From Deltaproteobacteria bacterium (GTDB taxonomy: Bacteria > Acidobacteriota > Holophagae > Holophagales > Holophagaceae): a DNA stretch of 34,458 bases. Under the pieces are notes generated by a model. It saw nothing but the letters and a program-made list of their open reading frames with translations. It had not been told where the DNA came from and searched no databases. Both the position numbers and the translations under genes were made by a program. Below are positions 2,850 to 34,458 of the stretch, one piece after another. How positions within the stretch are numbered: position 1 is the stretch's first letter; each line of letters opens with the position of its first letter. The stretch spans positions 1 to 34,458 of the forward strand of contig JAIFMW010000091.1 of NCBI GenBank assembly GCA_020048105.1, given 5' to 3'.

Positions 2850-3556
2850 CCGAATGGCTTCAAAACCTCGCTGAGATGATGGCCCAGGCTTCAGCGGCCA
2901 AGCAGCTCGGCATCGTCTTCCTCGGCGGATTGCTGACTTCGATGAACCCCTGTGTCCTGGTGGCCGCTCCTTTGGTCGTGGGCTTCGCAGGGGGGACCAA
3001 GGAAGGCCGTCACCATCCGATGCTCTTATCCGGTGTTTTCGTTCTAGGCTTGGCTGCCGCTTTTACGGTTCTCGGTCTGGTAGCGGCGGTCACGGGTTCG
3101 CTGCTGGGTGATATCGGTTGGGGTTGGAAGGCTTTGTTGGGCCTGATTCTCCTTGCCGTGGGGCTCCACCTGCTGGGCGTCTTCAACCTCCCCACGCCTT
3201 CCCATGGCTTCCTGGCTCGCTTCCAGGGTGCAGGGCTGATCGGAGCCTTCATCATGGGTGCCCTCACCGGCACCCTGAGTGCCCCCTGCGCGACGCCAGC
3301 CCTGGCAGCGGTGCTCACGGTTGTCGCTTTGCAGAAGAAGATCCTGTGGGGCGGCGTGTTGCTTTTTGTCTACGCCATTGGTCATGTGATTCTGCTCTTT
3401 CTTGCGGGTGCATCCTCTGGCTGGGCCAGCAAGTACGCCGAGAGTCATTTCTCGAAAATCGTAGGCCGCTGGCTACCAAGAGTCATGGGCACCCTGCTGC
3501 TGGGCTGCGCCCTCTGGGTGATGTGGCTGGCCTGGCAATCCAAGATCGCGGGGTGA
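2846..3556 (+). CDS. ccdA: CcdA/DsbD-like transmembrane thiol-electron transporter
   Basis: A 236-residue membrane protein with about six hydrophobic segments. The two halves carry the family's Cys-Pro signatures: SMNPCVLVAAPLVVGF (Cys36) and SAPCATPALAAVL (Cys148). CcdA and the membrane core of DsbD move electrons from cytoplasmic thioredoxin across the membrane through this cysteine pair to a periplasmic thioredoxin. The partner is almost certainly the exported thioredoxin encoded just upstream, whose stop overlaps this start. With the mini-thioredoxin on the cytoplasmic side, the operon encodes a full thiol relay across the membrane beside the ArsP-type pump. Cytochrome c maturation is the classic role of CcdA, but no other maturation gene is present here. 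Confidence 0.88.
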   Translation: MTEWLQNLAEMMAQASAAKQLGIVFLGGLLTSMNPCVLVAAPLVVGFAGGTKEGRHHPMLLSGVFVLGLAAAFTVLGLVAAVTGSLLGDIGWGWKALLGLILLAVGLHLLGVFNLPTPSHGFLARFQGAGLIGAFIMGALTGTLSAPCATPALAAVLTVVALQKKILWGGVLLFVYAIGHVILLFLAGASSGWASKYAESHFSKIVGRWLPRVMGTLLLGCALWVMWLAWQSKIAG

Positions 3557-6490: not shown

Positions 6491-6595
6491 ACCACGGAGA
6501 CACGGAGGGCACGGAGAAAGCTTGAGACACGGAAAGTCGATGGATTTCCCCTCTAACTTCTTTATTCTCTGTTCCCTCCGTGTCTCCGTGGTTAA
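6491..6595. repeat. Long inverted repeat of CACGGAG units (copy 2)
   Basis: The left arm at 6491-6519 reads ACCACGGAGACACGGAGG and onward in CACGGAG steps. The right arm at about 6561-6595 is the imperfect reverse complement, ending CTCCGTGGTTAA. The spacer of about 40 bases differs from copy 1. It follows the LytTR gene by about 70 bases. Confidence 0.85.
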
Positions 6596-11400: not shown

Positions 11401-11763
11401 GGCGCGCCAAGGATCGGTATCACCTTCGAAGGTCACAACCACCTGCACCAATTCGGGCAGCACCAGCGTGTTAACGCGCTTAACGCCGGGCATGCCGCCC
11501 AAGGCTTGCTCCGTGGGTTGGGCCACGGAGAGTTCCAATTCCGGGGTGGCGCGGCCAGGACTCTGGATGAGCACACTCAGGATCGGCAGGCTCATGTCGG
11601 GGAAAAGATCCCGCTTCAGGCTCTGGAAGGTAAAGAGACCCGCCAAACCCCAGGCAATGCTCAGGGCGAAGACCCAGCCCTTGCGGGGCAGGAGCCAATC
11701 GAACCAGCGGCGAATCAGGGCGCGGTGATGAGAGGTGGATTCCGGCTGGAAATCAGTGGCCAT
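8491..11763 (-). CDS. Heavy-metal-type RND efflux pump (CusA/CzcA-like)
   Basis: A 1090-residue inner-membrane proton-driven pump of normal RND size. Helix 1 is followed by the family pattern DLFPDMSLPILSV; the helix-4 segment VGLLVDAAVIMVENLAHR matches the VDAAxxMxEN form of CusA and other heavy-metal RND pumps rather than the DD pair of drug pumps. A porter-domain stretch RSGRADVTEDPCPM also fits the metal branch. It follows the adaptor gene with an 11-base overlap; the start at 11763 (MATDFQPES) is preferred to 11775. Unusual: residues about 294-352 are an inserted His/Glu/Pro-rich tract absent from relatives, lying in a periplasmic hairpin of the porter domain (see the repeat entry). Substrate is probably a soft or divalent metal ion; which one cannot be read from the sequence. 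Confidence 0.92.
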   Translation of the reverse strand: MATDFQPESTSHHRALIRRWFDWLLPRKGWVFALSIAWGLAGLFTFQSLKRDLFPDMSLPILSVLIQSPGRATPELELSVAQPTEQALGGMPGVKRVNTLVLPELVQVVVTFEGDTDPWRARQLVAERLSGVIGSYPSGTRPPLMSSASGRLHELMEIVLEGENIDPMKLRDHTEQVLTPRLQSVPGVARVERLGGQERSLQITLIPEKIRSQGVSLSRVMTALEQSHQDLAAGVLEIQDKGWYMSVGSLAATPEEVRQLPVQAARGIITLGDIAEIREAPAFRRGLARHAIGEHEPAAGSAEPARALHEPRKGSSEPTRESHEPAAGAKGHDIAEGNIARRVRPMDGSHEDVSIRIVKQPNAATLEVAEGVRTAVAELKKGLPEGMHLELIYDQGRLVTNALSGVSLALMVGGVFVAMVLILLLGNFRGALLVLAVLPLATLGAAIPLHFAGLGLNAMTLGGLAIAVGLLVDAAVIMVENLAHRLRDHQDNVEPRRVALTRAAAEVATPILIAVLVILAVFIPLLSMGGIAGKLYAPLAVAVAASMTISLVLTFTLVPALVERFLPPGASLQEPRLVLAIKRIYRPALDWALHHGPLVRVLAFGLTIPSIWLAFQLGTNFLPTLDERAFMMLSKVPAESSLEAVDQANLQLDARVKAIPGVESVYRRSGRADVTEDPCPMTDSEIMVILTPDADERMVGREVLEAAEAMPFPVEVNTPMQERIAEGIGGTPADIQVKFFNRDLEPVRAALKEIQERLAKLEGVRSVTPDTPNPMPRWRVALDEEALRRLGVPRPLVAMTLQAALQGLESEIRFEGPQRIGRIVRFPNDGRMSPENLKDTPLVLEDGRALALGQVMRFEETSTPTLVRRESAQRRLGLNVRTTGDLGGTALRIEKALEGIKLPPGTFIKLGGKIEEARETHQRLAIAIAAALALVVGLLYIALKRWREVLVVLATLPDAFAGALFALWLAGESWNISSIVGMIGLFGVAVQNSLVLITQAKDLMAKGVPFEEALREASLGRVRPKLMTAGAAILGLMPMLFGFGGSELERPLAIAMVGGLFTSTLFTLLALPSFYAWVGRPKPDGVPVKE
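10708..10884 (-). repeat. In-frame tandem repeat and double-hairpin element inside the RND gene
   Basis: Read on the minus strand, three units each begin CA(C/T)GAGCCC. The first two are 42 bases (10881-10840 and 10839-10798) and encode HEPAAGSAEPARAL and HEPRKGSSEPTRES. The third is 81 bases (10797-10717) and holds two perfect hairpins: GATATTGCC-GAA-GGCAATATC and TGCGACCCAT-GG-ATGGGTCGCA, joined by GCCCGAAGGG. A closing CATGAG follows. All keep the pump reading frame. The third unit matches the cheA/cheW junction element at 24872-24951 in arrangement and in conserved blocks. Confidence 0.85.
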
Positions 11764-12892
11764 GGCCGCCCTCACCTTCGGGTTGGCTGCGTTTCTGCTG
11801 GTAGGCCTTCAGGAGGTAGGCTCCCTCCGTCACAACTGTGGTGCCGGGTTTCAGTCCATCCACGATCAGGACCTCATCCTTCACTTCCATGCCGCGCGTT
11901 ACGGCGGTAAAAACCGCGCGCTCCTTCTCCACCACAAAGACTCCCCAGCGGCCATCCACCTGCTGCAGGGCGGCCTGGGATAGGTAGATGCCCTTGCCCA
12001 GTGGCACCTTTACTTCGACAGGTGTGCCGGGCATGGGCAGGGCGCCACCCAAGAAACGCAGGCGATAGCTCAGGCGCTGAGTGTCAGTGGTCAGGGTCGA
12101 AGGGGTGCTTTCGAGGCGGGCCTTCCAGGTGCGGCCGTTGGCCTGACGGACCTCGCTTTCCGCACCGGGGTTCCAGCCGATTGGTCCTGGCTGGGAGAGT
12201 TCCAGGCGAATGACTCCGGCCTGGGCGGCCTGGAATTGACCTAATTCTTGACCGGCTTCGACGCCTTGGCCCCGCTGCACTTTCCAGGCCACCACCGCAC
12301 CATGGGCAGGAGCCTTCAACAGGTAATTGGCCCCCGCTTCGCCGGGCTTCAGGCCCACGGCCTCCAAGCTAAGGCGTGCGGCCTCTTCTTCGGCCTTGGC
12401 CGTGGCCGATTCGCCCTGAATGGCTTCGAGGTCGCGACGGGCACCTGCGCCCGCTTGGAAGAGTCGGTCTTCTCGCGCCAGATCCAATTGAATTCGGTCC
12501 AGCTTGGCCTTGGAAGCGATCCACGCCGCCTTTAGGTGGGCCAACTCGGGGCTCTGAATCATCACGAGGGTTGCGCCCGTCGGGCGGTTTTGGCCTGGGA
12601 TCGCCAGCACCTGGCTGACAATGCCCTTCACGGGGCTGCTCAGCAGCGCCTGGGCGGCCTCGTCGCCCACCGCTTCGCCGGGCACCCAGCGGCCCTCGAG
12701 GCGCGGTTCGGGCACCTTGGCCAGCCCGAGGCCACGAATGCCCTCCAGATGAATTCCGGGGCCTTCGGATTCCGCTGCAGCGTGGTCATGGCCTGCGTGC
12801 GGATCGGCATGTTCGGGGGCGGATTTTTTGGCGCAGCCCTGTCCTGCGAGAAGCACAAGAAGCAGGGGAAGAATCATCACCAAGCGGTTCAT
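11753..12892 (-). CDS. RND efflux adaptor lipoprotein (CusB/CzcB-like)
   Basis: A 379-residue periplasmic adaptor. The N-terminus is a lipoprotein signal, LLLVLLAGQGC, with Cys20 as the lipidated residue. A His-rich segment follows at once (EHADPHAGHDH), and the C-terminus ends GEGGHGH, so both ends could bind metal. The core shows a barrel-sandwich half (SSPVKGIVSQVLAIPGQ), a helical hairpin (about residues 110-180) and the second half (LLKAPAHGAVVAWKVQRGQ). The adaptor bridges the RND pump and the outer-membrane channel and, in CusB, also delivers the metal. Its start overlaps the channel gene stop by 4 bases and its stop overlaps the pump start by 11, giving tight coupling. Confidence 0.92.
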   Translation of the reverse strand: MNRLVMILPLLLVLLAGQGCAKKSAPEHADPHAGHDHAAAESEGPGIHLEGIRGLGLAKVPEPRLEGRWVPGEAVGDEAAQALLSSPVKGIVSQVLAIPGQNRPTGATLVMIQSPELAHLKAAWIASKAKLDRIQLDLAREDRLFQAGAGARRDLEAIQGESATAKAEEEAARLSLEAVGLKPGEAGANYLLKAPAHGAVVAWKVQRGQGVEAGQELGQFQAAQAGVIRLELSQPGPIGWNPGAESEVRQANGRTWKARLESTPSTLTTDTQRLSYRLRFLGGALPMPGTPVEVKVPLGKGIYLSQAALQQVDGRWGVFVVEKERAVFTAVTRGMEVKDEVLIVDGLKPGTTVVTEGAYLLKAYQQKRSQPEGEGGHGH

Positions 12893-14073
12893 GGTTTTAC
12901 CTCGGGCAGTAGGGTCTGGAGTTCGGCAAGAAGCAGGTGTTGGGTGTAGACCTGCCGGAGGGAGGCCATCTGGGCTTCCAGAAGTTGGCGGCGGATGGGG
13001 AGTGCCTCCGAAGGGCGCTCACGGCCTTCCTTCAGGCGCAGGCCAACGGCTTCTAGGGCCTGCGTGAAATCGGGCACCGCGGTTAGGCTTCCGGCGTTTT
13101 GCCATTGCGTGGCGGCTCCTTGGAAACGAGCCTCCAAATCGGCCAGGGCCTGGCGGGCTTCGCCTTGCACCATGCGCAGCTGGGCTTCGGTGCTGCGCCG
13201 TATGGCTTCGGTTTCGCCGGGTCTGGGCAGGCGGACAGCCATGCCGATCCGCGTGACTTTTTCGTCGCCTTCTTGGGCATGGCTGCCCCGGAGGCTCCAG
13301 CGGCTTAGGTTCTGGGCTTCCTTTAGACGAAGGCTGCGGGCTTCCAATTCTGCTTGAGCCACAAGGGCCTTGCGCAGGGGGCTCTCCTTCAATCGCTGGT
13401 CGAGGTCCGCCAAGGGGAAATTGGGCATTGGGCCTGGGTCTGCCAAGGGCGCGGCCTTCTCGGGCACTTCGGCCAGGGCCACCAAGGCGCTCCAGGCTTG
13501 CAGGGCCTGAAGCTGAGCTTCGTTCAATTCCAGTTGCACCTTCAGGCGCTCGCCTTCGACCAAGGCCACCTGGAAGGCTGGATCGGCTCCCGCGTCGAAG
13601 CGGGTCTTGGCGACCTTAAGCCAGCCCGCCACGGTGGCGAGATCCGCTTCCCGCAAGGTCAGCAGACGCGCGCCCAGCCAAGCGTTTAGATAGGCCTTGC
13701 GCAACCGCAAGGCACCTTCCCGCTGGGCCGCCTCCTTGAGCAAAGGATGCGCTGCGCCAAGACTGGCTTCGAGGTCTGTGCGCAGGCGGGGCGACAGGAA
13801 GAGCGGTAGATCGAGCTCAAAGCCCTTGTCGGTGCTGCCCGGTTCACGAGGGCTGCGCCTCGGCCCGATTTGAAAAGAAAGGCTAGGTCCCTCGCGCAGA
13901 AAGCCACGGCTTTCCTGGAGGCGAAGATGATGTTCCGCGAGCAGGCTCTCGGTTCGCCAGTGCTCGGGCGTGGGTCGCGCCTTGGCCTGGAGGATGTCGT
14001 ATGGGATGGGCGTCTGGGCCGCTGCCTGCAGTGCCTGCAGGCAGAGCAGCGCCCCGCAAAGGGGAAGTCGCAT
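12889..14073 (-). CDS. TolC-family outer-membrane efflux channel (CusC/CzcC-like)
   Basis: A 394-residue protein with a signal peptide (LCGALLCLQALQAAAQ). It then shows the long amphipathic helices of the outer-membrane efflux family, in two similar halves (about residues 40-200 and 220-394), rich in Leu, Ala, Glu and Gln. Barrel-like strands appear at PSLSFQIGPRRSP and TRIGMAVRLP. It would form the trimeric exit duct for the metal pump encoded next. No Cys follows the signal peptide, so it is not an obvious lipoprotein, unlike CusC. It lies 61 bases after the small His/Cys-rich gene and overlaps the adaptor gene by ATGA. Confidence 0.9.
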   Translation of the reverse strand: MRLPLCGALLCLQALQAAAQTPIPYDILQAKARPTPEHWRTESLLAEHHLRLQESRGFLREGPSLSFQIGPRRSPREPGSTDKGFELDLPLFLSPRLRTDLEASLGAAHPLLKEAAQREGALRLRKAYLNAWLGARLLTLREADLATVAGWLKVAKTRFDAGADPAFQVALVEGERLKVQLELNEAQLQALQAWSALVALAEVPEKAAPLADPGPMPNFPLADLDQRLKESPLRKALVAQAELEARSLRLKEAQNLSRWSLRGSHAQEGDEKVTRIGMAVRLPRPGETEAIRRSTEAQLRMVQGEARQALADLEARFQGAATQWQNAGSLTAVPDFTQALEAVGLRLKEGRERPSEALPIRRQLLEAQMASLRQVYTQHLLLAELQTLLPEVKP

Positions 14074-21782: not shown

Positions 21783-22115
21783 ATGACAGTCGCGAAATCC
21801 CCCATGAAGACCCAGAAGGCCGATGGGACCCTGCGTCTCAACCCCAATGGCGATCTGGTGGCCAGCACCGTGGAAGTTCTGCGAGACAGCATGCTCAAGG
21901 CCCTGGAGTCGGCCAAGATCGCCGTGGTGTTGGATCTGGCCTCCACCAAGCAGATCGATTCCTTGGGCATCACCCTGGTGCTGGGTCTGTTCAAGAGTTG
22001 CCAGAAGAAAGAGCTCGCCTTCTCCATCGAAGGGGCCAGTACCGATCTCCTGCGGGTGTTCAAACTCTTCAACCTGACCAAATTCTTCCCCATTGCGGAG
22101 GCGATTCGTGAGTAG
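21783..22115 (+). CDS. STAS-domain anti-sigma-factor antagonist (RsbV/HsbA-like)
   Basis: A 110-residue single STAS domain. The core strand and switch helix read IAVVLDLASTKQIDSLGITL, with Ser60 in the DSLG motif that RsbW-type kinases phosphorylate and PP2C phosphatases clear. Both activities are encoded at the C-terminus of the protein immediately upstream. GGAGG precedes the ATG. The stop overlaps the cheA start by 8 bases, so output is made together with CheA. By analogy with HsbA of Pseudomonas and SypA of Vibrio fischeri, its partner may be an anti-sigma factor, a cyclase or another protein; the operon suggests something in the chemosensory array. Confidence 0.93.
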   Translation: MTVAKSPMKTQKADGTLRLNPNGDLVASTVEVLRDSMLKALESAKIAVVLDLASTKQIDSLGITLVLGLFKSCQKKELAFSIEGASTDLLRVFKLFNLTKFFPIAEAIRE

Positions 22116-24876
22116 CTTCGCAGACGAGAGCATCATTTCGGATTTCGTAGCCGAGAGTCGCGAACATCTGGCGACCATCGAGCCTGATCTGCTCCGCATG
22201 GAGCAGGAAGGGGCCAAGGTCAGCTCCGAAGTCATCAATCGGGTCTTTCGTGCCATCCATTCAATTAAGGGCGGTGCGGGCTTTTTCGCCTTCGAGGCCC
22301 TAAAGAAACTCAGCCACGCCATGGAAGGCGTGCTCATGCAGGTGCGGGACGGCAAGCTAAAGGTCTCGGCCGAACTGATGGATGTGGTCTTTGCCAGCCT
22401 CGATCGGTTGAAGGCCATGCTGGACGATATCCAGGCCAGCGATACCGTGCCCTATGCCAAAGAATTAGCCACCCTGGAAGCCATTCTGAGTGGGCAGGGC
22501 CTGATCATTGGCGAAACGGTCAAGGGCCGCGAAAAGGGCGCCCAGCGCGATTTCGATCTGGATGCCGAAAGCGTGCGGTCGGCCCTGCGCCGAGGCATGA
22601 ATATCTTCCGCGCCATCGCGTTTTTGCATCGGGATATCCGCGATAAGGGCATGACACCTTTGGCCTTCCTGAATCACGCACTGTCGGTGGGTACCTGCCT
22701 GGATGCCTTCATCGATATCGAAGCCATCGCCGATCTCGAACACTGCCTGGATCAGGACCTGCCCGTCACCTTGCTCTTTGCCACCGTGCTCGAGCCGGAT
22801 CTCGTGGCCCTGGGCCTCAAGCTGCCCATCGAACAGATCAAGGTTCTGGAGCTGGAAGCCCTGCGCAAGGAAGTCAAGGCCAAGGCCAAAGGCACCACCG
22901 AAATCGCAGTCGCGTCGGCTCCGGTGATGGAAGCCGCCGCCATCCAGCCCGAAGTTGAACCGGAAATTGTTGCGGACGCGGAAGCCGACCCAAGCGCCGA
23001 AGGTGAGGCGCCCTCTGAACTGCCGACCAGCGACAAGGCTGCGCGGGATATGAACAAGGACTCTGGCAACGAAACCCTGCGGGTGCGGGTGGATCTGCTG
23101 ACCAACCTCATGAATTTGGCGGGCGAATTGGTGTTGGGCCGCAACCAACTGGTGCGGGCCGTAACCGACTATCAGCACGAAATTCCGGGCCTGGGCGCCA
23201 TTTTGCAAAACGTGAACCAGGTGACCACCGAAATGCAGGAAGGCATCATGCAGACCCGCATGCAGCCCATCGGCACGGTGTTCAGCCGCTTCCCGCGCAT
23301 CATCCGGGATATGAGCCGCCAGCTTTCCAAGCAGATCGAAGTCAAGATCGAAGGCGCCGAGGTGGAACTCGACAAATCCATTGTCGAAATGCTGGTGGAT
23401 CCCCTCACCCACATCATTCGCAACTGCGCCGATCACGCCATCGAAACCCCGGCGGAACGCGCCAAGGCCCGCAAGGATCCCTCGGGCACCATTCACCTGC
23501 ATGCTTTCCACGAGGGTGGTCAGATCAATATCGCCGTCCACGACGATGGTCGGGGCATCGATGCCAAGAAGGTGCTGGCCAAGGCCATCGCCAAGGGCTT
23601 GGTGACCAAGGCGCAGGGTGCGGAAATGACCGAGCGCGAAATCGTGCATCTGGTCTTTGCACCGGGTTTTTCAATGGCCGAAAAGGTCTCCGAAATTTCC
23701 GGCCGTGGCGTGGGCATGGATGTGGTGCGCACCAACGTCGAAAAGTTGGGTGGCCATGTGGAAATGGAAACGGAATTGGGCATGGGCACCACCGTGCGTC
23801 TGCGCCTGCCGCTGACCTTGGCCATTATTCCCTCCATGATTGTGGGGATTACCGAGCATCGCTTTGCCATTCCCCAGGTCAACGTGGTGGAGTTTGTGTG
23901 GGTCAAGGCCTCCGAAGTCGCACAGCGCATTGAACAAGTGCAAGGCGCCCTGGTCTTAAGACTGCGGGACAAGCTATTGCCCCTGGTGCGCCTCGCCGAT
24001 GTGCTTGGCATTCAGCGTGTTTTCACCGATCCGGTCACCGGCGAAAACGTTCCCGATCGTAGGGAATCCTTAGCGGATCGTCGGGGGGAATTGCCCGAAG
24101 AGCCCGAGAATGCAGCGGAACGCAAGGGCGATCGCCGGGCCGATTGGCGCAGCGATCACAACATCATCGTGCTGCGAGTCGGCAAGAATCATTACGGTGT
24201 GATCGTGGACGAACTCTTCGATATCGAAGAGATTGTGGTCAAGCCGCTTTCGGGCTTCATCCAGGGAACCAAGTGCTTCAGCGGCGCCACGATCCTGGGC
24301 GATGGCCGCGTGATCATGATTCTGGATGCCGGTGGTCTCGCCAGCGCTGCCAATCTCCATTTCACCGATTTGCAGGCCGAGGAATTGCGCCGAGCCGAAG
24401 AAGAAAAACGCAACCTTGCGCTCAAAGCCTCACGACGCCGCTCCGTGATTTTGTTCGAAGCTGCCAAGGGCGAGCGCTTCACGGTGCCCCAGGATCATGT
24501 GTTGCGGCTTGAGCGCATCGTCAAGAGCAAGATCGAATTCATCGGCGACCGCGAGTACATCGAATACCGTGGCGAAGGATTGCCGCTGGTGCGCCTGGAT
24601 CAGCACTTGGAGGTGCGGCCCCTCAAGGCCGATTTGGAGGAGCTGTTCCTGGTGATCCCCAAGATCCCCGGCCAGAACTCCACCGCCCGGCCGCCTGCCG
24701 GAATCCTGATTTCCGAAATTCTGGATGCCTTGGATGTCGAGGTGGAATTGAAGGCCGTGGAGTTCAAAGGCCCCGGCCTGCTGGGCTCGGCCGTGGTGCA
24801 GGAGCACCTGACCTTGTTCCTCGATCCCGTGGCGCTCTTGCAGGCGGCGGGTCTTATGGGAGGAGACACAGAATGA
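22108..24876 (+). CDS. cheA: CheA histidine kinase with two CheW-like domains
   Basis: A 922-residue kinase, longer than the usual 650-700. The HPt domain (1 to about 110) holds His51 in AIHSIKGGAGF. Residues about 130-260 form an uncharacterised segment, then an Ala/Glu-rich linker, then the dimerisation domain from about 321 (LTNLMNLAGELVLGRNQL). The ATP domain shows HIIRNCADHAIE, HDDGRGID and GRGVGMDVV. Two CheW-like domains follow, about 568-765 and 775-922; the first is split by a charged insert around 640-690 (RRESLADRRGELPEEPENA). GTG 22108 is chosen because GGAGG lies 7 bases upstream; it overlaps the STAS stop. The gene ends in the double-hairpin element at the cheW junction. Its array partners are CheW and the two receptors downstream; no CheY is seen. 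Confidence 0.95.
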   Translation: MSSFADESIISDFVAESREHLATIEPDLLRMEQEGAKVSSEVINRVFRAIHSIKGGAGFFAFEALKKLSHAMEGVLMQVRDGKLKVSAELMDVVFASLDRLKAMLDDIQASDTVPYAKELATLEAILSGQGLIIGETVKGREKGAQRDFDLDAESVRSALRRGMNIFRAIAFLHRDIRDKGMTPLAFLNHALSVGTCLDAFIDIEAIADLEHCLDQDLPVTLLFATVLEPDLVALGLKLPIEQIKVLELEALRKEVKAKAKGTTEIAVASAPVMEAAAIQPEVEPEIVADAEADPSAEGEAPSELPTSDKAARDMNKDSGNETLRVRVDLLTNLMNLAGELVLGRNQLVRAVTDYQHEIPGLGAILQNVNQVTTEMQEGIMQTRMQPIGTVFSRFPRIIRDMSRQLSKQIEVKIEGAEVELDKSIVEMLVDPLTHIIRNCADHAIETPAERAKARKDPSGTIHLHAFHEGGQINIAVHDDGRGIDAKKVLAKAIAKGLVTKAQGAEMTEREIVHLVFAPGFSMAEKVSEISGRGVGMDVVRTNVEKLGGHVEMETELGMGTTVRLRLPLTLAIIPSMIVGITEHRFAIPQVNVVEFVWVKASEVAQRIEQVQGALVLRLRDKLLPLVRLADVLGIQRVFTDPVTGENVPDRRESLADRRGELPEEPENAAERKGDRRADWRSDHNIIVLRVGKNHYGVIVDELFDIEEIVVKPLSGFIQGTKCFSGATILGDGRVIMILDAGGLASAANLHFTDLQAEELRRAEEEKRNLALKASRRRSVILFEAAKGERFTVPQDHVLRLERIVKSKIEFIGDREYIEYRGEGLPLVRLDQHLEVRPLKADLEELFLVIPKIPGQNSTARPPAGILISEILDALDVEVELKAVEFKGPGLLGSAVVQEHLTLFLDPVALLQAAGLMGGDTE

Positions 24877-24951
24877 GCGCGCAACAGGAGTGGAGCACCA
24901 CTTTACCGCAGGTAAAGCCCGCAGGGTGCGGGACAGGAGGTCCCGCATGAG
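24872..24951 (+). repeat. Double-hairpin element at the cheA/cheW junction
   Basis: From ATGAG at 24873 to CATGAG at 24946-24951 the junction matches the third unit of the RND insert: 18 of 24 bases after the first ATGAG, then hairpin CTTTACC-GCA-GGTAAAG (24901-24917), then GCCCGCAGGGTGCG (13 of 14), then hairpin TGCGGGAC-AGGAG-GTCCCGCA (24927-24947). Hairpin stems differ in sequence between the copies but pair in both. The element supplies the cheA stop (TGA 24874-24876), the cheW Shine-Dalgarno in the loop of hairpin 2, and the cheW ATG. CCCGCA at 24918-24923 can also pair with TGCGGG at 24927-24932, competing with hairpin 2, which would free or hide the Shine-Dalgarno. Confidence 0.8.
24873..24950 (+). 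CDS. Possible 25-residue linking ORF between cheA and cheW
   Basis: ATG at 24873 overlaps the cheA stop as ATGA, and its own stop at 24948 overlaps the cheW start as ATGA. The peptide reads MSAQQEWSTTLPQVKPAG and ends CGTGGPA. It has no family and lies wholly within the double-hairpin element, so it may only serve to carry ribosomes through the hairpins from cheA to cheW. A functional peptide is not supported by the sequence. Confidence 0.3.
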   Translation: MSAQQEWSTTLPQVKPAGCGTGGPA

Positions 24952-25408
24952 CCAATTCGCGACTTTCAACGTGGGCGATCGCCTGTTCGGGCTGGATATC
25001 CTGGGCGTGCGTGAAATTATCCGTGTGTTCACCATTACACCGGTTCCGCGGGCCGAGGCCCATATCCGAGGGCTGATCAATCTGCGCGGTCAGATTGTCA
25101 CCATCCTCGATCTCTCCGTGCGGTTGGGCCATGATCCGCTGCCGGTCAAGGATTCCAGCCATATCGTGATCTTGAAGCATGGCGCCAACACCGCCCAGGG
25201 CAACGGCCGCAACCAAGGCGGCACGCAGGACCTGATGGGCCTACTGGTGGATGCCATCGGTGACGTGGTGGAGGCCGAAGCCGCCCTGGCCGAGGCCCCT
25301 CCGGCCAACCTCACCGATGCCGAGGAACACTTTCTCTCTGGTGTGCTCAAGACCGACCAGGGACTGCTGGTGCTCCTGAATCTGCAAGAACTGTTATCGA
25401 GCGGGTAG
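24947..25408 (+). CDS. cheW: CheW scaffold protein
   Basis: A 153-residue CheW. It starts MSQFATFNVGDRLFGLDI and shows the family segments VREIIR, PRAEAHIRGLINLRGQIV and LGLLVDAIGDVV-like LMGLLVDAIGDVV. A Gly/Asn/Gln-rich insert (GANTAQGNGRNQGG) lies between two strands. CheW couples receptors to CheA. The ATG at 24947 has AGGAGG 6 bases upstream; the longer frame from 24890 reads through the repeat element and is rejected. The extra upstream reading (ARRVR) matches the RND insert because both come from the same element. Confidence 0.93.
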   Translation: MSQFATFNVGDRLFGLDILGVREIIRVFTITPVPRAEAHIRGLINLRGQIVTILDLSVRLGHDPLPVKDSSHIVILKHGANTAQGNGRNQGGTQDLMGLLVDAIGDVVEAEAALAEAPPANLTDAEEHFLSGVLKTDQGLLVLLNLQELLSSG

Positions 25409-25651: not shown

Positions 25652-28504
25652 ATGCGCTTCCTCGATAACATCAAGATGGGCCCCAAACTCATCACTTCCT
25701 TCCTGATTACGGCAGCCCTCGCTGTCATCCTCGGCTTCTTTGCGATCAGCAAGATGCAAGCTGCCGACGACGCCGACACCCTGCTCTTTGAAAAGGGCGC
25801 AGTACCCATTGGCGAATGGATGGATGTTGCCCAGGCCACCTACCGGATCCGATCCAACATGCGCGACATCGTGCTGGGCAAGGATTACGAGGCCTATAAC
25901 AAGCGCATTGCGGACCGCATTGCTGAGCGGACCAAAGCGGAAGAGGCCTTCGAAAAGACCATCGTTTCTGATGAAGCCAAAGCGCTATGGAAGCGCTACA
26001 AGGAAAACCAGGCCGCCATCGGCGATGGCAACCGCAAAACGCGGGAACTCGCACGGGCTGGAAAAAGGGCTGAGGCTGAAGCCTTGATGTATGGCGAGGT
26101 GGACAAACTCCAGCAGGAACAAAACAAGATCTACGATGAGATGACGGCCGCCAAACTGAAATTCAGCAAAGATATTGCCACCGAGAACACCACTAACTTC
26201 CTTGCCGCCAAAAAGGCCATGTATTTCATGATGGTCATCGCCGCTGGTCTGGCTGCGGCGCTGGGCGTTATCATCGCCCGTTCCATCGCCCAGCCTCTGG
26301 CCAAGGGCGTGGACATGATGAACGAAATGGGCAAGGGCCATCTGGGTACCCGCTTGAAGCTGGAGCGTAAGGACGAGATCGGTGAACTGGCCCGCGCCAT
26401 GGATGTGTTCTCCGAGGATCTCCAGATCAAGGTGGTCGGCACCATGCAGAAGATCGCCGTGGGCGATTTGACCACCGAATCCAAGCCCGTGGATGGCCAG
26501 GATGAAATCAACCCGGCCATGATCCAGATGACCAACGCCTTGCGCGCCATGGTCGCCGAGACCCAGGGGCTCGTTCAATCTGCCGTAGAAGGCAAGTTGG
26601 CCACCCGCGCCGATGCCACCAAGTATCAGGGCGATTACCGCAAGATCGTGCAAGGCGTGAACGAATGCCTGGACGCCGTCATTGGCCCCCTCAACGTCGC
26701 AGCTGGATATGTGGACCGGATTTCCAAGGGCGATATCCCCCCCAAGATCACCGACAAATACAACGGTGATTTCAACGAGATCAAGAACAACCTGAACACC
26801 TGCGTGGATGCCGTGAATGCCTTGGTGGCGGATGCCGTTCTACTCAACAAGGCTGCCGTCGATGGCAAGCTGGCCACCCGCGCCGATGGCAGCAAGCACC
26901 AGGGTGATTTCCGCAAGGTCGTGCAGGGCGTGAACGAATGTCTGGATGCCGTCATTGGGCCTCTGAACGTTGCGGCTGGCTACGTGGACCGCATTTCCAA
27001 GGGCGATATCCCGCCTAAGATCACCGATAACTACAACGGCGATTTCAATGAAATTAAGAACAATTTGAACACCTGTGTGGATGCCGTGAATGCTTTGGTG
27101 GCCGATGCCACCATGCTGGCTAAGGCCGCTGTGGATGGCAAGTTGGCCACCCGGGCCGATGCCACCAAGCATCAGGGTGATTTCCGCAAGGTCGTGCAGG
27201 GCGTGAATGACACGCTGGATAACGTGATCAATCCCATCAACGAAGTGCAGCGCATCATGGGCGCCATGGAACAGGGTGATCTCACGGCGCGAATCACCAC
27301 CGAATATAAGGGTGATCTCCAAACCCTGCGCAATGCCGTGAACAATAGCGCCACCAAGCTGGCGCAGACCCTCACCGAAATCAGCGGCGCCAGCAACACC
27401 CTGGCCAGCTCCGCCGATGAACTGACCGCCACATCGGCCACCATGAGCAACAGCGCCGAGCAGATGACCCAGCAGGCCAATACCGCCGCTGCTGGCACCG
27501 AGCAGGCCTCCGCCAACGTGAAGAACATGGCCGCAGGCGTGGAAGAAATGAGCGCCAACGCCAATACGGTGGCCTCGGCCTCGGAAGAAGTAACGGCCAA
27601 TCTGCGCACCGTGGGTGCGGCGGTGGAGCAGATGTCTTCGAACATGAAGACCATCGCCGCCAACACCGAGCAGATGACGAGTTCCGTGAACACGGTGGCC
27701 ACGGCCATCGAGGAAATGAGTGTGAGCTTGAACGAAGTCTCCAAGAACTCCGGCCAGGCCGCATCTGTCGCGGGCAAGGCCTCCAGGAGCGCCGCCAGCA
27801 CCGCCGAGACCGTGAACAAGCTCGGCAAGAGCGCTCAGGAGATCGGCAAGGTGGTGGACATGATCAAGGGCATCGCCGCGCAGACCAACCTGCTGGCGTT
27901 GAATGCGACCATCGAAGCTGCCAGCGCCGGGGAAGCGGGCAAGGGCTTCGCCGTGGTGGCCAACGAAGTGAAGGAACTGGCCAAGCAGACGGCCAGTGCC
28001 ACCGAGGAGATTCGCGCCCAGGTGGAAGACATGCAGGGCAATACCCAGCAGGCGGTGAAGGCGATCGACGATATCGTTCAGATCATCGGCGAGATCAACG
28101 CGATCTCCGGCAACATCGCCGCGTCGGTGGAAGAACAGACTGCCACCACCAATGAGATCTCGAAGAATGTAGGCTTCGCCGCCCGGGGCGCCGCCGAAGT
28201 TTCTCGGAACGTCCAGCAGGCCGCCACCGGCACCAATGAGGTTTCGCGGAACGTGCAGGAAGCCGTGAAGGGTGTCACCGATATTTCGCGCAACATCAAT
28301 CAACTGGCCACGGGTGCCGGTGATGTGGCGAAGAATGCCGGAGAAGCTTCCCGTGGGATGAACGATGTGAGCCGCAACGTGGCCCACGTCAGCACCGCCG
28401 CCAAGGATACCACGCGGGGTGCCGGGGATACCAACAACGCCTCCAAGGAACTGGCGCGGTTGGCCGAGAAACTGCAACAGACCGTATCGCGCTTCAAGCT
28501 GTAA
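25652..28504 (+). CDS. Methyl-accepting chemotaxis protein with poly-HAMP repeats
   Basis: A 950-residue receptor. Membrane helix 1 spans about residues 12-33, a four-helix-bundle-type periplasmic sensor about 36-185, and helix 2 about 188-210, then a HAMP domain. Next come HAMP-like repeats of exactly 91 residues (starting at 314, 405 and 496), each with [18 protein letters not shown] and [14 protein letters not shown]. The signalling domain occupies about 585-950; its tip includes [20 protein letters not shown] and [15 protein letters not shown]. The protein ends QQTVSRFKL with no CheR-tethering pentapeptide. The ATG has AGGAGA upstream. From about residue 500 onward it is nearly identical to the second receptor, so the two probably arose by duplication with gene conversion. 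Confidence 0.95.
26591..27230 (+). repeat. 273-base tandem repeats in receptor 1
   Basis: Units begin at 26591, 26864 and 27137, exactly 273 bases (91 codons) apart; the first two are full and the third turns into a different HAMP after about 90 bases. The units are very similar at DNA level, for example GGCAAG(T/C)TGGCCACCCG at each start. They encode the poly-HAMP linker. Such close similarity invites repeat-number change by recombination. Confidence 0.85.
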
Positions 28505-28510
28505 ACAAAA

Positions 28511-28568
28511 ATTCACCAGGGAGCAACCGCGCCGCAAGGATTGCGGTTGCTCTCTGGTGAATCTTGTT
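28511..28568 (+). terminator. Strong intrinsic terminator after receptor 1
   Basis: A 20-base left arm (28511-28530, ATTCACCAGGGAGCAACCGC) pairs with 28543-28562 with one G-T wobble; the loop is 12 bases, and CTTGTTTT follows. It starts 7 bases past the receptor stop codon. It should end the giant-kinase/cheA/cheW/receptor transcript and leave receptor 2 on its own promoter. Confidence 0.8.
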
Positions 28569-28996: not shown

Positions 28997-29011
28997 TCAG
29001 TGAGGATTGCG

Positions 29012-31834
29012 ATGGCCAAAAAAACAATTCTCGGAAAGGCCCTGACCGCCATCATTAGCGGCTTGGTGCTGGTCTTCGGTATTGCCATGGTCATCCAATG
29101 GCGCCAGATGGGTGATCAGACCCAGCGACGCCTTCAAGACAACGGGGCATCCATGGCTACGGTCATGCTGGCGGCCCTGCATAACGACATGCTCAAGGGT
29201 GATAACGAAGGCGCCCAGGCCATGACGTCCAAGGTGGGTAGCGCAGGCGTTGTTCGCACGGCATTTGTGCTGAGGGACAGTGGCAAGGTCTTTGTTGCTT
29301 CGGACCAAGCCATGATCGGGAAGGACTACGCCTTGGAAGATGTTTCGGTGCTGCGGGGAGGGCTGTCGAGTTCCTTCAGCCTTTCTGCAGAACATGGCCG
29401 ACCCTATTCCAGGACCCTCCTACCCATTCGAATGGAAAGCGGCTGCCTGGATTGCCATCCAGGGGTCAAGATCGGTGATCCGTTGGGTTACCTCGGGGTG
29501 GAGCCCTGGGCCGAACGCGATTTTCAGGAAGCCGGGATCGCCAAGCGCAACCTGGTGATCTTCAACCTGCTGATTGTGATTCTCGTGACGGGTTCGATAT
29601 TTATTTTGCTGCGCTGGATCACTCGGCCACTGGGAGAAATCTCGGCGGTTTCCGCTCTGATGGCGCAAGGCGAAATCAATCAATCCATTTCGCATCATTC
29701 CAACGATGAACTGGGCACCTTGGCCGATTCCTTCCGGGACATGATGGGCTATATCAAAGGCATAGCCCAAAGTGCCGATGCCATCGCTGAGGGTAATTTG
29801 CAGGTGGAAATTTGCCCAAAGGGTCCCCAGGATTTGCTATCCCACAGCATGGTCGGGGTTACCCAGGTGCTACGGGGAATGACGGAGGAGACTTCACGCA
29901 TTAGCCATGCCGCTGAGGAAGGTCACCTCAATACCCGGGGAAATGCAGACCGTTTCCACGGGGCTTATGGGGAAATCATTCTTGGGATGAATCACACGCT
30001 GGATGCGGTCACCGGTCCCTTGTTCGTAGCCGCTGGTTATGTGGATCGAATTTCCAAGGGTGATATTCCACCCAAGATTGCAGATACCTACCACGGCGAT
30101 TTCAACGAAATAAAACACAACCTAAATACCTGCATTGATGCCGTCAATGCCTTGGTAAACGATACCGACCTGCTTAGCAAGGCAGCCGTGGCGGGGAAGC
30201 TTGTCACTCGGGCCGATGCCACCCATCACCAAGGCGATTTCCGCAGGATTGTGCAAGGGATCAATGACACGCTGGATGCGGTGATTGGACCCCTCAATGT
30301 GGCCGCTGGTTGCCTAGATCGAATTTCCAAGGGCGATATCCCGCCCAAGATCACAGACAACTACCAAGGGGATTTCAATGCCATCAAAAACAACTTGAAC
30401 ACCTGCGTGGAGGCCGTGAGTGCCTTAGTTCTAGATGCTGCCATGCTTAGTAAGGCTGCGGTGGATGGCCAGCTGGCCACCCGGGCCGATGCCACCAAGC
30501 ATCAGGGCGATTTCCGCAAGATCGTGCAGGGCGTGAATGACACGCTGGATGGCGTGATTAATCCCATCAACGAAGTGCAGCGCATCATGGGTGCCATGGA
30601 GCAGGGCGATCTCACGGCGCGGATCACCGCTGAATACAAGGGCGATCTCCAGACCCTACGCAACGCCGTGAACAATAGCGCTGCCAAATTGGCGCAGACC
30701 CTCACGGAAATCAGCGGCGCCAGTAATACCCTGGCCAGCTCCGCCGATGAACTGACCGCCACCTCGGCCACCATGAGCAATAGCGCCGAGCAGATGACCC
30801 AGCAGGCCAATACCGCCGCTGCGGGAACGGAGCAGGCCTCCGCCAATGTGAAAAACATGGCCGCAGGCGTCGAGGAAATGAGCGCCAATGCCAACACGGT
30901 GGCTTCGGCCTCGGAAGAAGTATCGGCCAATCTTCGCACTGTGGGTGTGGCGGTGGAGCAGATGTCTTCGAACATGAAGACTATCGCGGCCAATACCGAG
31001 CAGATGACCGGTTCCGTGAACACAGTAGCCACGGCCATCGAGGAAATGAGCGTAAGTCTAAACGAGGTTTCCAAGAGCTCGGGGCAAGCTGCGTCCGTGG
31101 CTGGGAAGGCCGCCAAGAGCGCTACCTATACCGCCGAAACCGTGAACAACCTGGGCAAGAGTGCTCAGGAGATCGGCAAGGTCGTGGAGCTGATCAAGGG
31201 CATCGCCGCGCAGACCAATCTGCTGGCGTTGAATGCGACCATCGAAGCCGCCAGCGCCGGTGATGCGGGCAAGGGTTTTGCCGTGGTGGCCAACGAGGTG
31301 AAGGAACTGGCCAAACAGACCGCCAGCGCCACTGAAGACATTCGCGCCCAGGTGGAAGACATGCAAGACAACACCCAGCAGGCCGTGAAGGCGATCGAAG
31401 AGATCGTGCAGGTCATCGGCGAGATCAACGCAATCTCCGGCAATATCGCGGCCTCGGTGGAGGAACAGACCGCCACCACCAACGAGATTTCCAAGAATGT
31501 AGGCTTCGCCGCTCGCGGGGCCGCCGAAGTTTCCCGCAATGTTCAGCAGGCCGCCACGGGCACTAACGAGGTTTCGCGGAATATTCAGGAAGCCGTGAAG
31601 GGTGTCACCGATATTTCGCGCAACATCAATCAACTGGCCACGGGCGCTGGCGATGTGGCGAAGAATGCCGGAGAAGCCTCTCGTGGCATGAACGATGTGA
31701 GCCGCAATGTGGCCCATGTCAGCGTGGCTGCCAAGGACACCACGCGCGGCGCAGGCGACACCAACAACGCCTCGAAGGAGTTGGCCAAGCTCGCAGAGAA
31801 ACTCCAGCAGACGGTGTCGCGCTTCAAGCTGTAA
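29012..31834 (+). CDS. Heme c-binding methyl-accepting chemotaxis protein with poly-HAMP repeats
   Basis: A 940-residue receptor. Membrane helix 1 is at about residues 8-28 and helix 2 at about 180-203. The periplasmic part between them holds SGCLDCHPG, a CxxCH heme c site at residues 145-149, in the position seen in the Geobacter heme-PAS receptors GSU0582 and GSU0935. HAMP and 91-residue HAMP-like repeats follow (units at about 29909, 30182 and 30455, 273 bases apart). The signalling domain then reaches the end [12 protein letters not shown] 29012 has TGAGGA 6 bases upstream; the GTG at 29000 is less likely. Such receptors sense redox potential or small ligands at the heme. The C-terminal 450 residues are almost the same as receptor 1, while the sensor halves are unrelated. 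Confidence 0.94.
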
Positions 31835-31907
31835 AGAACGACCTGGAACCCCGAATGAACGCGAATGAAAAAGGCAGATTGGAGGTCTCGATCGTGGGTG
31901 GATTCTG

Positions 31908-33035
31908 TTGCTGAAGCCTGGGCAGTGTCTGCGGCTGTGCTTGTGTCTCTGGTCCTTCTTTGGCGTGGCGCAGGAGCCTGTTCGGACAGTTCCCGCGCCC
32001 TCCTCGGACCCGAAGGTCGATCCGACGCTGCGAGTCTCCTTCGACGCGTGGCGGGATAAATTGGCAGAAGCCATGTTCGGTATCAGGCCATCGGCCTTTG
32101 GCGATGTCCTGGTGGCCCCGAATGACGAGGGCAAGAAAAAGCTGGACTGGGGAGCCTTCGAACTCGACCTGGAAGGCAAGCTCCACGAGAACCTGGATGC
32201 CGCGCTGGCCGTGGTCGCTACCCGGGATGCAACCCAACTGCCGGTGGCCTTCCTCGACTTCCATCCCTTCGGCGGCGGCATCGCGCCCCGGGGGCGCCTC
32301 TGGGTGGAGAAGGGGTTTCACATTCAGGTGGGCCGCTTCGATGTACCCTTCGGCAATGATTGGCAGTTCTTCGCGAGCAAGGACAGCGCCTCCATTTCCC
32401 GCCCGCTCACGACCGATGGGATCATGGACGGCGGCTACAACGACCTGGGACTTCGCGTGCTGGGCAACAACGGGGCCGTGAACTTCAACACCTTCATCCT
32501 GCGTGGCTTCGGGGAGGGCCGCCTCGTGGGTGGACGGTTCGGCCTCACCCCTTTCGGCAACCCGTTCTCCCTCAGGAAGACGCGGGAACCCAAGATAGCC
32601 GAATTCGGCATCTCCCTGCTCTACGATACCGATCGCAGCCGGAAGCGGGAATTGGCCTGGGCCGCCGATGCGGAAGGACGCCTGGGCCCCTACCAAATCA
32701 GGGCGGAATATCTCTGGCGTCGGCGTGAACCCGGAGACTCCGAGGAAGGCTCCACGAAGCAGGGTTGGCACCTGACCCAGGAGTTCGCCTTTGCGGATCT
32801 CCCCTTGCCCACCACGATCTTCCTGCGCTATGACCGGATCACCGAACGCTCATCCCTGCTGCCGCCCGAAGATGACCGTGATACCCGGCTGACGGCAGGT
32901 GCCAGCGCCGGTCTGGCGGGCTTCCTGCAGCTCAAGGTGGAGTGGCAGCATAGGCTCCAGGCCAGGACCGCATCGCGGGAGACGCCCGGCTACAGTCGGA
33001 ATCTCTGGCTCGCCCAACTGGTGGTGGTGTTCTGA
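31908..33035 (+). CDS. Porin-like outer-membrane protein
   Basis: A 375-residue protein. A signal peptide (LRLCLCLWSFFGVAQ) is followed by a mature part made of alternating polar and hydrophobic strands ending in aromatic or charged turns, for example GFHIQVGRFDVPFGNDW, FGISLLYDTD and LPTTIFLRYDRI, and the last residues are LAQLVVVF with a C-terminal Phe. This is the pattern of an outer-membrane beta-barrel. The start is unsure: TTG 31908 is the only good in-frame choice after a stop at 31866, and GGAGG at 31881 is too far away. The tetraheme cytochrome gene overlaps its stop by one base, so the two probably work together, perhaps in electron passage through the outer membrane. I cannot name the family. 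Confidence 0.72.
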   Translation: MLKPGQCLRLCLCLWSFFGVAQEPVRTVPAPSSDPKVDPTLRVSFDAWRDKLAEAMFGIRPSAFGDVLVAPNDEGKKKLDWGAFELDLEGKLHENLDAALAVVATRDATQLPVAFLDFHPFGGGIAPRGRLWVEKGFHIQVGRFDVPFGNDWQFFASKDSASISRPLTTDGIMDGGYNDLGLRVLGNNGAVNFNTFILRGFGEGRLVGGRFGLTPFGNPFSLRKTREPKIAEFGISLLYDTDRSRKRELAWAADAEGRLGPYQIRAEYLWRRREPGDSEEGSTKQGWHLTQEFAFADLPLPTTIFLRYDRITERSSLLPPEDDRDTRLTAGASAGLAGFLQLKVEWQHRLQARTASRETPGYSRNLWLAQLVVVF

Positions 33036-33469
33036 TGCGCTGGGTGATGATCCTGTTTGCTTCCCTGTCACTCGCCGCCCAGGAACCTGCGGACATGCCC
33101 GGGAATAGAGCCCTGAAGGATGCCTCGGCCTGCACGGCCTGCCACCAGGACGCGCAGAAACGCTGGACGACTCACCGAGCGCGACCGTGCACACCCTATT
33201 GCCTGACCTGCCACACCCAGGCCGCCATGGCCCAGCATCATTCCGTGGATGTGCCGCTCCTAAAGTCGCTGCCGACACCGCTTCCCCTCACCAAGGAGCA
33301 GCGCATGGGCTGCTCCACCTGCCATGACCTGTCCCGAGCGCGGGAAGATCTCGTTCCCTGGAAGGCGGAGAGCCTCTTCGATCGCATGTTTCGCAAGCAA
33401 CGCCGCTATAAGACCTATTTCCTCGTCCAGCGCAATGAGCGCGGCCAACTATGCCGCACCTGCCATTGA
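33035..33469 (+). CDS. Small periplasmic tetraheme c-type cytochrome
   Basis: A 144-residue protein with a signal peptide (about residues 1-15, ILFASLSLAAQ). Four CxxCH heme sites are visible: CTACH, CLTCH, CSTCH and CRTCH, the last forming the very C-terminus. Additional His residues (for example in AQHHSVD) could be distal ligands. ATG 33035 overlaps the porin-like stop as TGATG. It is short for its heme content, like periplasmic electron shuttles in metal-reducing bacteria. It does not match NapC/NrfH types because there is no membrane anchor beyond the signal. The CcdA-like protein at 2846 could supply reduced apocytochrome cysteines, but that link is speculative. Confidence 0.88.
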   Translation: MRWVMILFASLSLAAQEPADMPGNRALKDASACTACHQDAQKRWTTHRARPCTPYCLTCHTQAAMAQHHSVDVPLLKSLPTPLPLTKEQRMGCSTCHDLSRAREDLVPWKAESLFDRMFRKQRRYKTYFLVQRNERGQLCRTCH

Positions 33470-33477
33470 GGGTCATC

Positions 33478-34032
33478 ATGTTTCCCAAAAAAGCACGCCG
33501 CATCGTCCTGATCGATACCCGGTTCCAGCTCCGCCTCGCGGGCGCCTTTCTGGTGCTCCAGGTCATCCTCACCTGGCTGTTCGGGTTCGGCCTGTATCTG
33601 TTCATGGACAGCGAACTGAAGACCGGCCTGGCCTCGGCGCATGCCAGCTACCGCAGTCTTGAGCAGATGCTGCTCCCCATCGTGCTGGTGCTGGCCGCCT
33701 TCAGTTTGGCCCTGTCCACGGCGATGGTGACGGGCTTCGTGGTGATCCTCAGTCACCGCATCGCAGGCCCTCTGTTCCGCTTCCGCACGGTCCTGGAGGA
33801 CCTCGCCAGCCGCAGGCTCCCGACCCACACGCAGCTTCGCCCCGACGACCAGCTCGTGGAAGTCGCCACCTCGCTCGGGAGGGCCGTCGATACCCTTGCC
33901 AGCGATCTCTCTGCCCTGCATGCCGCCGCCGCGGAACTGCGACAGGCGGCCGCGCCCCTGCAGAATTCCGCCCTGGATGCCGCCGTGGCGAGGCTGGACC
34001 AGACCCTCGCCTCCTGGCAATGCAGTTCCTGA
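33478..34032 (+). CDS. Two-helix HAMP-domain membrane protein without output domain
   Basis: A 184-residue protein. Membrane helices are at about residues 18-43 (LAGAFLVLQVILTWLFGFGL) and 62-88, with a very short periplasmic loop. A HAMP domain follows (HRIAGPLFRFRTVLEDLA), then a helical tail rich in Ala, Leu and Gln that could form a coiled coil. There is no kinase, cyclase or receptor signalling domain; the gene ends naturally. It follows the cytochrome gene by 8 bases and the ATG has GAGGG close upstream. A stand-alone HAMP protein beside a cytochrome may relay redox state to another signalling protein; this is inference. Confidence 0.82.
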   Translation: MFPKKARRIVLIDTRFQLRLAGAFLVLQVILTWLFGFGLYLFMDSELKTGLASAHASYRSLEQMLLPIVLVLAAFSLALSTAMVTGFVVILSHRIAGPLFRFRTVLEDLASRRLPTHTQLRPDDQLVEVATSLGRAVDTLASDLSALHAAAAELRQAAAPLQNSALDAAVARLDQTLASWQCSS

Positions 34033-34087
34033 TCTGCTTAAAGAAAGAGGCAATGGCTGATAAAAGCGTAGGTTATTCGATGTGCTG

Positions 34088-34129
34088 GTCGAAAAACTCC
34101 AGCAGACTGTTTCGCGCTTCAAGTTGTAA
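34088..34129 (+). pseudogene. 3' remnant of a third chemoreceptor gene
   Basis: The frame reads [13 protein letters not shown] followed by TAA, which is the exact C-terminus of both complete receptors. At DNA level 36 of 40 bases match the end of receptor 2 (31796-31835). Nothing receptor-like precedes it. The bases after it (AAACAAAAA then TTCACCA) also resemble those after receptor 1. Confidence 0.85.
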
Positions 34130-34141
34130 AACAAAAAACTT

Positions 34142-34308
34142 TCACCACGGAGAACACAGAAATGTTAAGTAGCGGTTTCGACGCACTCGACGTAGGCCCC
34201 ATGGGCTGCTAAGCGGCCTCGCCTTGGGTGAGCCATGGAGCCAACTCGCGACAAGCCCATCTCTCGTTCGTCCCCCTCCTTCTCCGTGCTTTCCGTTGCT
34301 CCGTGGTG
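34142..34308. repeat. Long inverted repeat of CACGGAG units (copy 4, decayed)
   Basis: The left arm starts TCACCACGGAGAACACAGAA (34142-34162). The right arm (about 34278-34308) reads CTCCGTGCTTTCCGTTGCTC then CGTGGTG. The spacer is about 115 bases and contains no gene that I can support. The arms are less well matched than in copies 1-3. Confidence 0.75.
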
Positions 34309-34333: not shown

Positions 34334-34458
34334 ATGTTTGATACCACCTCTACCGGACTCAGCATAAAAAAATACTATCCATTCTGGATGAGCTGCAGGC
34401 TCTTTTGGTGGATTTAGACTTGGCATCGCACGCTTCTCGCGCCCGGAGTCTGCTGAGC
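34334..34458 (+). CDS. Start of a helical protein, split by a -1 frame change, cut by window end
   Basis: ATG 34334 has AGGA 7 bases upstream and reads MFDTTSTGLSIKK before a stop at 34415. At the run of seven A (34366-34372) the -1 frame continues as ILSILDELQALLVDLDLASH and on to the window end without a stop. That frame looks like genuine amphipathic helix and has no start of its own after a TGA at 34339. The heptamer A AAA AAA is in the right phase for -1 slippage. So either the gene uses frameshifting, it is mutated, or the run was misread. Family unknown. Confidence 0.45.

Follow-up and report, generated by a model that had tools for sequence, protein, structure and literature searches.

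A stranded chemoreceptor 3' end behind a porin-cytochrome-HAMP gene block in a Holophagaceae genome: very likely a recombination scar

The last 13 codons and the stop codon of a chemoreceptor gene lie, detached from any receptor, behind a compact block of porin, cytochrome and HAMP-type genes, and this orphan tail (34086-34129) is very likely a recombination scar. An initial annotation had called it an insertion scar, left when the block entered or replaced most of a third receptor gene or when a receptor array collapsed. Comparison with relatives supports the scar: the block occupies other sites in related genomes, receptor clusters occur without it, its right end meets 5'-truncated genes in both the genome studied here (G000) and its closest relative (G003), and the order of block and fragment is not common to all relatives compared. 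Insertion thus stands in outline; the third receptor has not been found and is not needed. A single exchange that dispenses with it would explain both the tail and the gene order, and is our preferred reading, to which we give a little less than an even chance.

Results

Gene order and the two receptors

The window analysed is the whole of contig C202 (34,458 nt) of G000, a MAG of 2.95 Mb in 246 contigs that is 82% complete; its nearest block-bearing relatives are Holophagaceae and Geothrix MAGs. The window runs from a che cluster through receptor 1 (R1), receptor 2 (R2), the three-gene block and the receptor tail to the start of a hemerythrin-like (HHE) gene (Table 1). Upstream of R1 the cluster comprises genes for a PAS-rich hybrid kinase, a STAS protein, CheA and CheW, and the CheA-CheW order is conserved in G092, G007, G024, G008, G017, G011 and G003.

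Table 1. Features of the window around the receptor tail, with the basis of each assignment
Feature	Positions	Strand	Basis
CheA and CheW genes, che cluster 5' of the receptors	22093-25408	+	Pfam Hpt, H-kinase_dim, HATPase, CheW
Receptor 1 (R1), MCP, 4HB sensor and repeated HAMP	25652-28504	+	Pfam 4HB_MCP_1, HAMP, HAMP_2 x3, MCPsignal
Receptor 2 (R2), MCP, periplasmic sensor with CLDCH (c-heme type) motif	29000-31834	+	Pfam HAMP, HAMP_2 x3, MCPsignal
R2 3' end matching the fragment (36/40)	31796-31835	+	Own-genome DNA search
Left seam, between the R2 stop and the onset of G003 block homology; holds the GAATGAACGCGAAT dispersed repeat	31835-31877	+	Homology with G003 block locus L022 starts at 31878
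Porin, 375 aa, signal peptide by eye, predicted 16-strand barrel	31908-33035	+	AlphaFold model, PDB match
Small c-type cytochrome, four CXXCH	33035-33469	+	Cytochrome_C7, sub-threshold
Membrane protein, 184 aa, hydrophobic stretches and HAMP-like segment by eye	33478-34032	+	Alignment of 9 sequences
Right seam, without homologue found	34033-34085	+	Homology with L022 ends at 34029
Orphan receptor tail, its final 13 codons plus stop	34086-34129	+	Own-genome DNA search, tail alignments
Fragment 3' flank resembling the R1 3' flank	34130-34155	+	Score 25
Dispersed CCACGGAG inverted-repeat pair	34145-34306	.	Repeat scan
Hemerythrin-like (HHE) gene, 5' part	34334-34458	+	Pfam Hemerythrin, E 6e-4, below its cut-off

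Across their last 1440 nt, R1 and R2 are 80-94% identical in each 120-nt step. Both receptors also contain a 273-nt (91-codon) tandem repeat (26537-27242 in R1, 30140-30572 in R2), whose units are highly identical within and between the two genes. The CLDCH motif of the R2 sensor lies at 29444-29458. The sensor gives sub-threshold matches to sCache_3 and Tll0287-like domains and no sequence match in the PDB, and its predicted structure (pLDDT 46) is too poor for use; judged from its sequence, R2 is likely a heme-bearing chemoreceptor. Because CXXCH is conserved in the R2 of both G092 and G007, where no block adjoins in the sequence seen, the motif is independent of the block.

The orphan tail is a third receptor 3' end

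The last 40 bases of R2 recur at 34091-34130 with 36 identities (90%; E 8e-9 against 31796-31835), a match not due to chance, and the fragment ends in TAA at 34127-34129 as annotated. It also matches the end of R1 (28461-28523) at 82% over 63-67 nt (E 5e-11), and the G000 assembly holds no further copies besides the R1 and R2 ends. The fragment is an orphan rather than a gene: it encodes only 13 residues, two in-frame stops stand a few codons upstream, and the features of a functional chemoreceptor (start codon, sensor, HAMP, signalling domain) are absent from it.

R1 and R2 differ from each other at 4 of their last 40 bases, and since the fragment stands at that same distance from R2, it represents a third tail and not a fresh copy. 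Over the last 39 nt it agrees with R2 at 35 positions and with R1 at 33, and is therefore slightly closer to R2; both receptor tails of G007 match it poorly. The 39-nt ends of R1, R2, the G003 receptor tail and the fragment all encode one 12-residue sequence. Every difference in the fragment is synonymous (4/4 to R2, 6/6 to R1, 5/5 to the G003 tail), where 23 of the 108 possible single changes in the tail would be so, although some of these changes are identical among the three comparisons, which are hence not independent tests. Divergence restricted to synonymous sites indicates that the tail evolved within a working receptor gene and was severed recently. The sequence following the fragment resembles the 3' flank of R1 with a score attained only by 9 of 20000 shuffled sequences and 15 of 18944 further 40-mers taken from the genome, as against a score of 10 for the R2 flank; because a CCACGGAG dispersed repeat starts within this flank, its likeness to that of R1 is only moderate evidence.

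The tail and the block might have separate histories, if a small segment comprising a receptor 3' end and its flank was copied to a place before the hemerythrin-like gene, and the block came into the gap at another time. The resemblance of the fragment flank to that of R1 would fit such a duplication, and a hotspot in this intergenic stretch is plausible given the dispersed repeats that lie at or close to each seam, but a dead duplicate would not be expected to show 10-15% divergence that is exclusively synonymous, nor would separate events account for the right end of the block meeting a truncated gene in G003 as well. We consider this explanation unlikely.

The porin-cytochrome-HAMP block

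The block is as compact as initially described, with open reading frames that overlap or nearly so (31908-33035, 33035-33469, and 33451-34032 or 33478-34032); a GAGGG upstream makes 33478 the likelier start of the third. The porin belongs to no Pfam family, and its AlphaFold model (pLDDT 73) finds its best PDB match in OprP (2o4v, TM 0.62), with OprO also among the best matches, so that an OprP-like barrel is predicted. All four CXXCH motifs of the cytochrome are kept across 9 aligned sequences. The third protein matches no Pfam family at 0.001 and has no signalling domain, its HAMP label coming from reading of the sequence alone. MtrAB is a porin-cytochrome electron conduit, and conduits of the MtrAB/PCC type have a large barrel of 20 strands or more; the block, with a barrel modelled at 16 strands and a cytochrome with 4 CXXCH, does not fit such a conduit with a decaheme-type cytochrome. 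No description of the block was found in the literature searched, which, even with the missing Pfam family, falls short of proof that it is absent from print.

Of 77 Holophagaceae genomes, 9 (G000 included) encode the porin, as do 5 of the 158 from a Gallionellaceae-group family; the three genes stand together in every examined locus long enough to show all of them. Plasmid- or phage-borne cargo was rejected, since the porin has no match in either the plasmid or the phage collection. The raised use of C- and G-ending codons noted at first sight is real, block GC3 being 0.80 against 0.73 in the two receptors and 0.71 in the 26 other G000 genes counted, but the shift is small, and because the fit of the block to host codon preference is positive, it does not mark foreign DNA. 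Between G000 and G003 the block is 84% identical in nucleotides, and its three proteins are 82%, 79% and 87% identical, compared with 86% for CheA, 87% for gltX and 86% for the RND gene of the window. Divergence at the level of core genes fits vertical descent within the genus and later relocation, not a recent arrival from a distant source.

The block lies at different sites in relatives

As proposed at the outset, the block is found at other sites. Five genomes (G006, G023, G065, G073 and G007) carry it immediately 3' of an RND gene, which where checked is preceded by OMP and MFP genes, although three of these pumps (G006, G023, G065) share 99-100% identity and amount almost to a single case. 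In G094 it sits between DUF1003 and peptidase S46 genes, and in G079 at a contig end among neighbours without a family. The RND pump of the window (8491-14073) was rejected as a lost partner of the block, being a paralogue (64%). A closer relative of the block-linked pump is encoded on contig C24 of G000 (77% over residues 1-297); the operon there (L136 1-3181) resembles that of the block-linked RND pump of the Geothrix relatives and runs off the contig after residue 297.

In G003 the block is flanked on one side by a gene that by eye resembles rsmA/ksgA and on the other by an OprM-type gene (L022 3218-3985) that lacks about its first 200 residues and aligns to OprM 205-448. Homology with the window ends at base 3217 and the truncated gene begins immediately after; this junction is a second scar. 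Within one genus, therefore, the right end of the block has been joined into the interior of two different genes. The G003 porin, with two stops close to its 5' end, is possibly a broken gene.

At 1-3 kb past the block, the G003 contig encodes a response regulator 79% identical, and a kinase 46-57% identical, to products of genes that in G000 stand 7-12 kb past the block on contig C77. On the basis of this response regulator, the block may predate the seam in this neighbourhood, and the receptors may be the arrivals.

Seams of the block

Homology between the block and G003 is confined to 31878-34029, starting 44 nt past R2 and stopping 56 nt before the fragment, and for 34030-34085 the loci examined offered no convincing homologue. 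The two seams share no direct repeat of at least 6 nt, no tRNA and no junction repeats were found, and no recombinase gene is present among the scanned genes of the window and C77. Judged by recombinase genes, tRNAs and junction repeats, the block does not look like a transposon, integron cassette or integrative element. Paired CCACGGAG inverted repeats also occur at 2036-2144, at 6492-6591 and in C77 (L029 1042-1123), and form a dispersed, REP-like family; the GAATGAACGCGAAT family is represented both at the left seam and in C77.

Contig C202 ends 330 nt past the fragment, and the HHE gene continues in C77 (L029 1-388) through a 91-nt identical overlap. At a run of seven A (34366-34372), just where C202 and C77 part, the body of this gene falls out of frame with its start codon, which would be strain variation, phase variation or error. 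The nearness of the contig end (34458), in a MAG of so many contigs, might raise the suspicion that unrelated contigs were joined. Such an artefact is scarcely credible: at 40 nt, the 90% repeat falls short of the 91 nt by which the contigs overlap, neither seam lies at a long repeat, and the contig is unbroken across both.

Receptor loci in the family show no third receptor

With the receptor 3' half as query (E<=1e-60), matches occur in 11 of the 77 family genomes, G000 among them, at one or two per genome; pairs are confined to G000, G007 and G092, and no genome has three. The key comparison is G092, where the same che cluster is followed by R1, HHE and R2 (the last cut by a contig end), so that a receptor tail stands directly 5' of the HHE gene, as the orphan tail does in G000. 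In G007 a tandem R1-R2 pair precedes CheB. A single receptor is followed by CheB in G008, G011 and G019, with CheB about 1 kb on in G017 and G077 and 6.5 kb on in G024; in G032 a contig end interrupts the receptor, and G083, one of the 11, was left out of the locus comparison. G003, which falls below the threshold, has CheA-CheW-R1 running into a contig end and, on another contig, a receptor tail followed by gltX. As a receptor neighbour in G000, gltX was discarded: it lies there on another contig with no receptor near. No block was seen beside the receptors of these relatives at the loci examined. Six more distant genomes show no receptor 5' of the HHE gene within flanks of about 1.5 kb; in a seventh, G001, the HHE gene is cut by the contig end.

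These loci bear on the possibility that a true third receptor once stood between R2 and the hemerythrin-like gene and that the incoming block removed all of it except the final 13 codons. Such a gene would account for a tail as distant from R1 and R2 as these are from one another, with synonymous changes throughout; the receptor preceding HHE in G092 and the tandem pair in G007 provide parallels. Against it, none of the 77 genomes yields a full third receptor at this threshold, G000 itself has just two receptors of this type among its 9 MCP-like matches, and the explanation requires both an extra gene and its near-total deletion. We regard it as a real but somewhat doubtful possibility.

The block recurs beside chemoreceptors in the Gallionellaceae group

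At five Gallionellaceae-group loci (L159, L160, L161, L162 and L028), an MCP gene adjoins the block in four, with gaps of 98, 18, 118 (convergent) and 55 nt, and at the fifth it is adjoined by cheB of a che cluster, so that all five have MCP or cheB as neighbour; these are raw counts. Two of these genomes share the MCP-porin-cytochrome-HAMP order of the window, with gaps of 18 and 98 nt against 73 nt in the window. Among Holophagaceae loci, adjacency to an MCP gene is seen only in the window, the other eight having none in the flanking DNA examined (two are short contigs).

The shared order might indicate that block and receptor form an old, operon-like unit, behind which a tandem receptor duplication and collapse left the tail. 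This is highly improbable. The two MCPs concerned are 55% identical to each other over their length but match R2 only in the cytoplasmic part, the other Holophagaceae loci have no MCP in the flanks examined, and collapse of a receptor array alone, as the initial annotation had it, would not place a three-gene block between the tails.

Discussion

A single exchange is the most economical explanation of the locus, in that it yields the observed order and makes a third receptor unnecessary. DNA with the block at its end, newly arrived or relocated, would have paired by homology inside a receptor gene, while its other end, the right end of the block, was joined illegitimately, without homology, into the resident receptor standing before the hemerythrin-like gene, 13 codons short of its stop. 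The remainder of this receptor copy would have been lost, its 3' end surviving at the seam, and the product would read receptor(s), block, receptor tail, hemerythrin. The tail itself, its synonymous-only divergence, the abrupt ends of the block, the other sites at which the block occurs and the receptor before HHE in G092 are all observed, and at the right seam a junction lacking homology is accompanied by what is left of the resident gene. The R1-like 3' flank of the fragment also favours the exchange. The anchoring by homology, the polarity of the exchange and the succession of its events are inferred. The long homology of R1 and R2 could serve as anchor, and no mosaic breakpoint was found; nor did the other eight Holophagaceae loci, in the DNA examined, offer a donor in which an orthologous receptor immediately precedes the block. 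Against the exchange stand the overlap of the R1-flank match with a dispersed repeat type, which may make the match partly convergent, the slightly closer relation of the fragment to R2 than to R1, the G003 response regulator some 3 kb from its block, and the contig end so near the fragment in an incomplete MAG.

The recurrence of the block beside receptors in both Acidobacteriota and Pseudomonadota might reflect function. The porin, tetraheme cytochrome and HAMP-only protein could constitute a redox module of the envelope, so far undescribed, that acts together with chemoreceptors in redox or metal taxis, the HAMP protein relaying the state of the cytochrome to the neighbouring receptor, in which case landing beside a receptor with a c-heme motif would have been selected rather than accidental. 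We hold this to be quite improbable; were the pairing functional, it would tie a taxis system to envelope redox chemistry in iron-cycling bacteria. The scar adds a further clear example of displaced genes leaving a short 3' remnant, an ordinary genome rearrangement. What is of lasting value is the cassette: a Pfam-less porin, a tetraheme cytochrome and a HAMP-type protein, present at many sites and often by chemoreceptors.

The block invites comparison with the porin-cytochrome conduits MtoAB, PCC3 and Uet, which likewise set an outer-membrane barrel gene beside a gene for a multiheme c-type cytochrome; it differs in its predicted 16-strand, OprP-like barrel, its mere four hemes and its HAMP-type third gene, and nothing similar is named in the excerpts of that source used here (PMC10734462). 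The R2 sensor resembles the heme c MCP sensors GSU0935 and GSU0582 of Geobacter (PMC3460858) in being periplasmic with one CXXCH. It shares the single CXXCH for which we compared it with the sCache_heme domains (PMC12889525), although R2 has no sequence match to solved structures.

For the scar, the closest parallels are the effector-immunity arrays of the Vibrio cholerae T6SS and the Rhs loci with their orphan 3' ends. The G000 locus differs from these in that its remnant amounts to 13 chemoreceptor codons, the donor arrangement was not found, and selection of the remnant is without evidence. In both (PMC5361080, PMC3240628), a new module stands behind a shared upstream gene with the displaced 3' remnant downstream, and the displaced 3' ends of the Vibrio T6SS and Rhs loci offer a precedent for homology-facilitated illegitimate recombination (PMC5361080).
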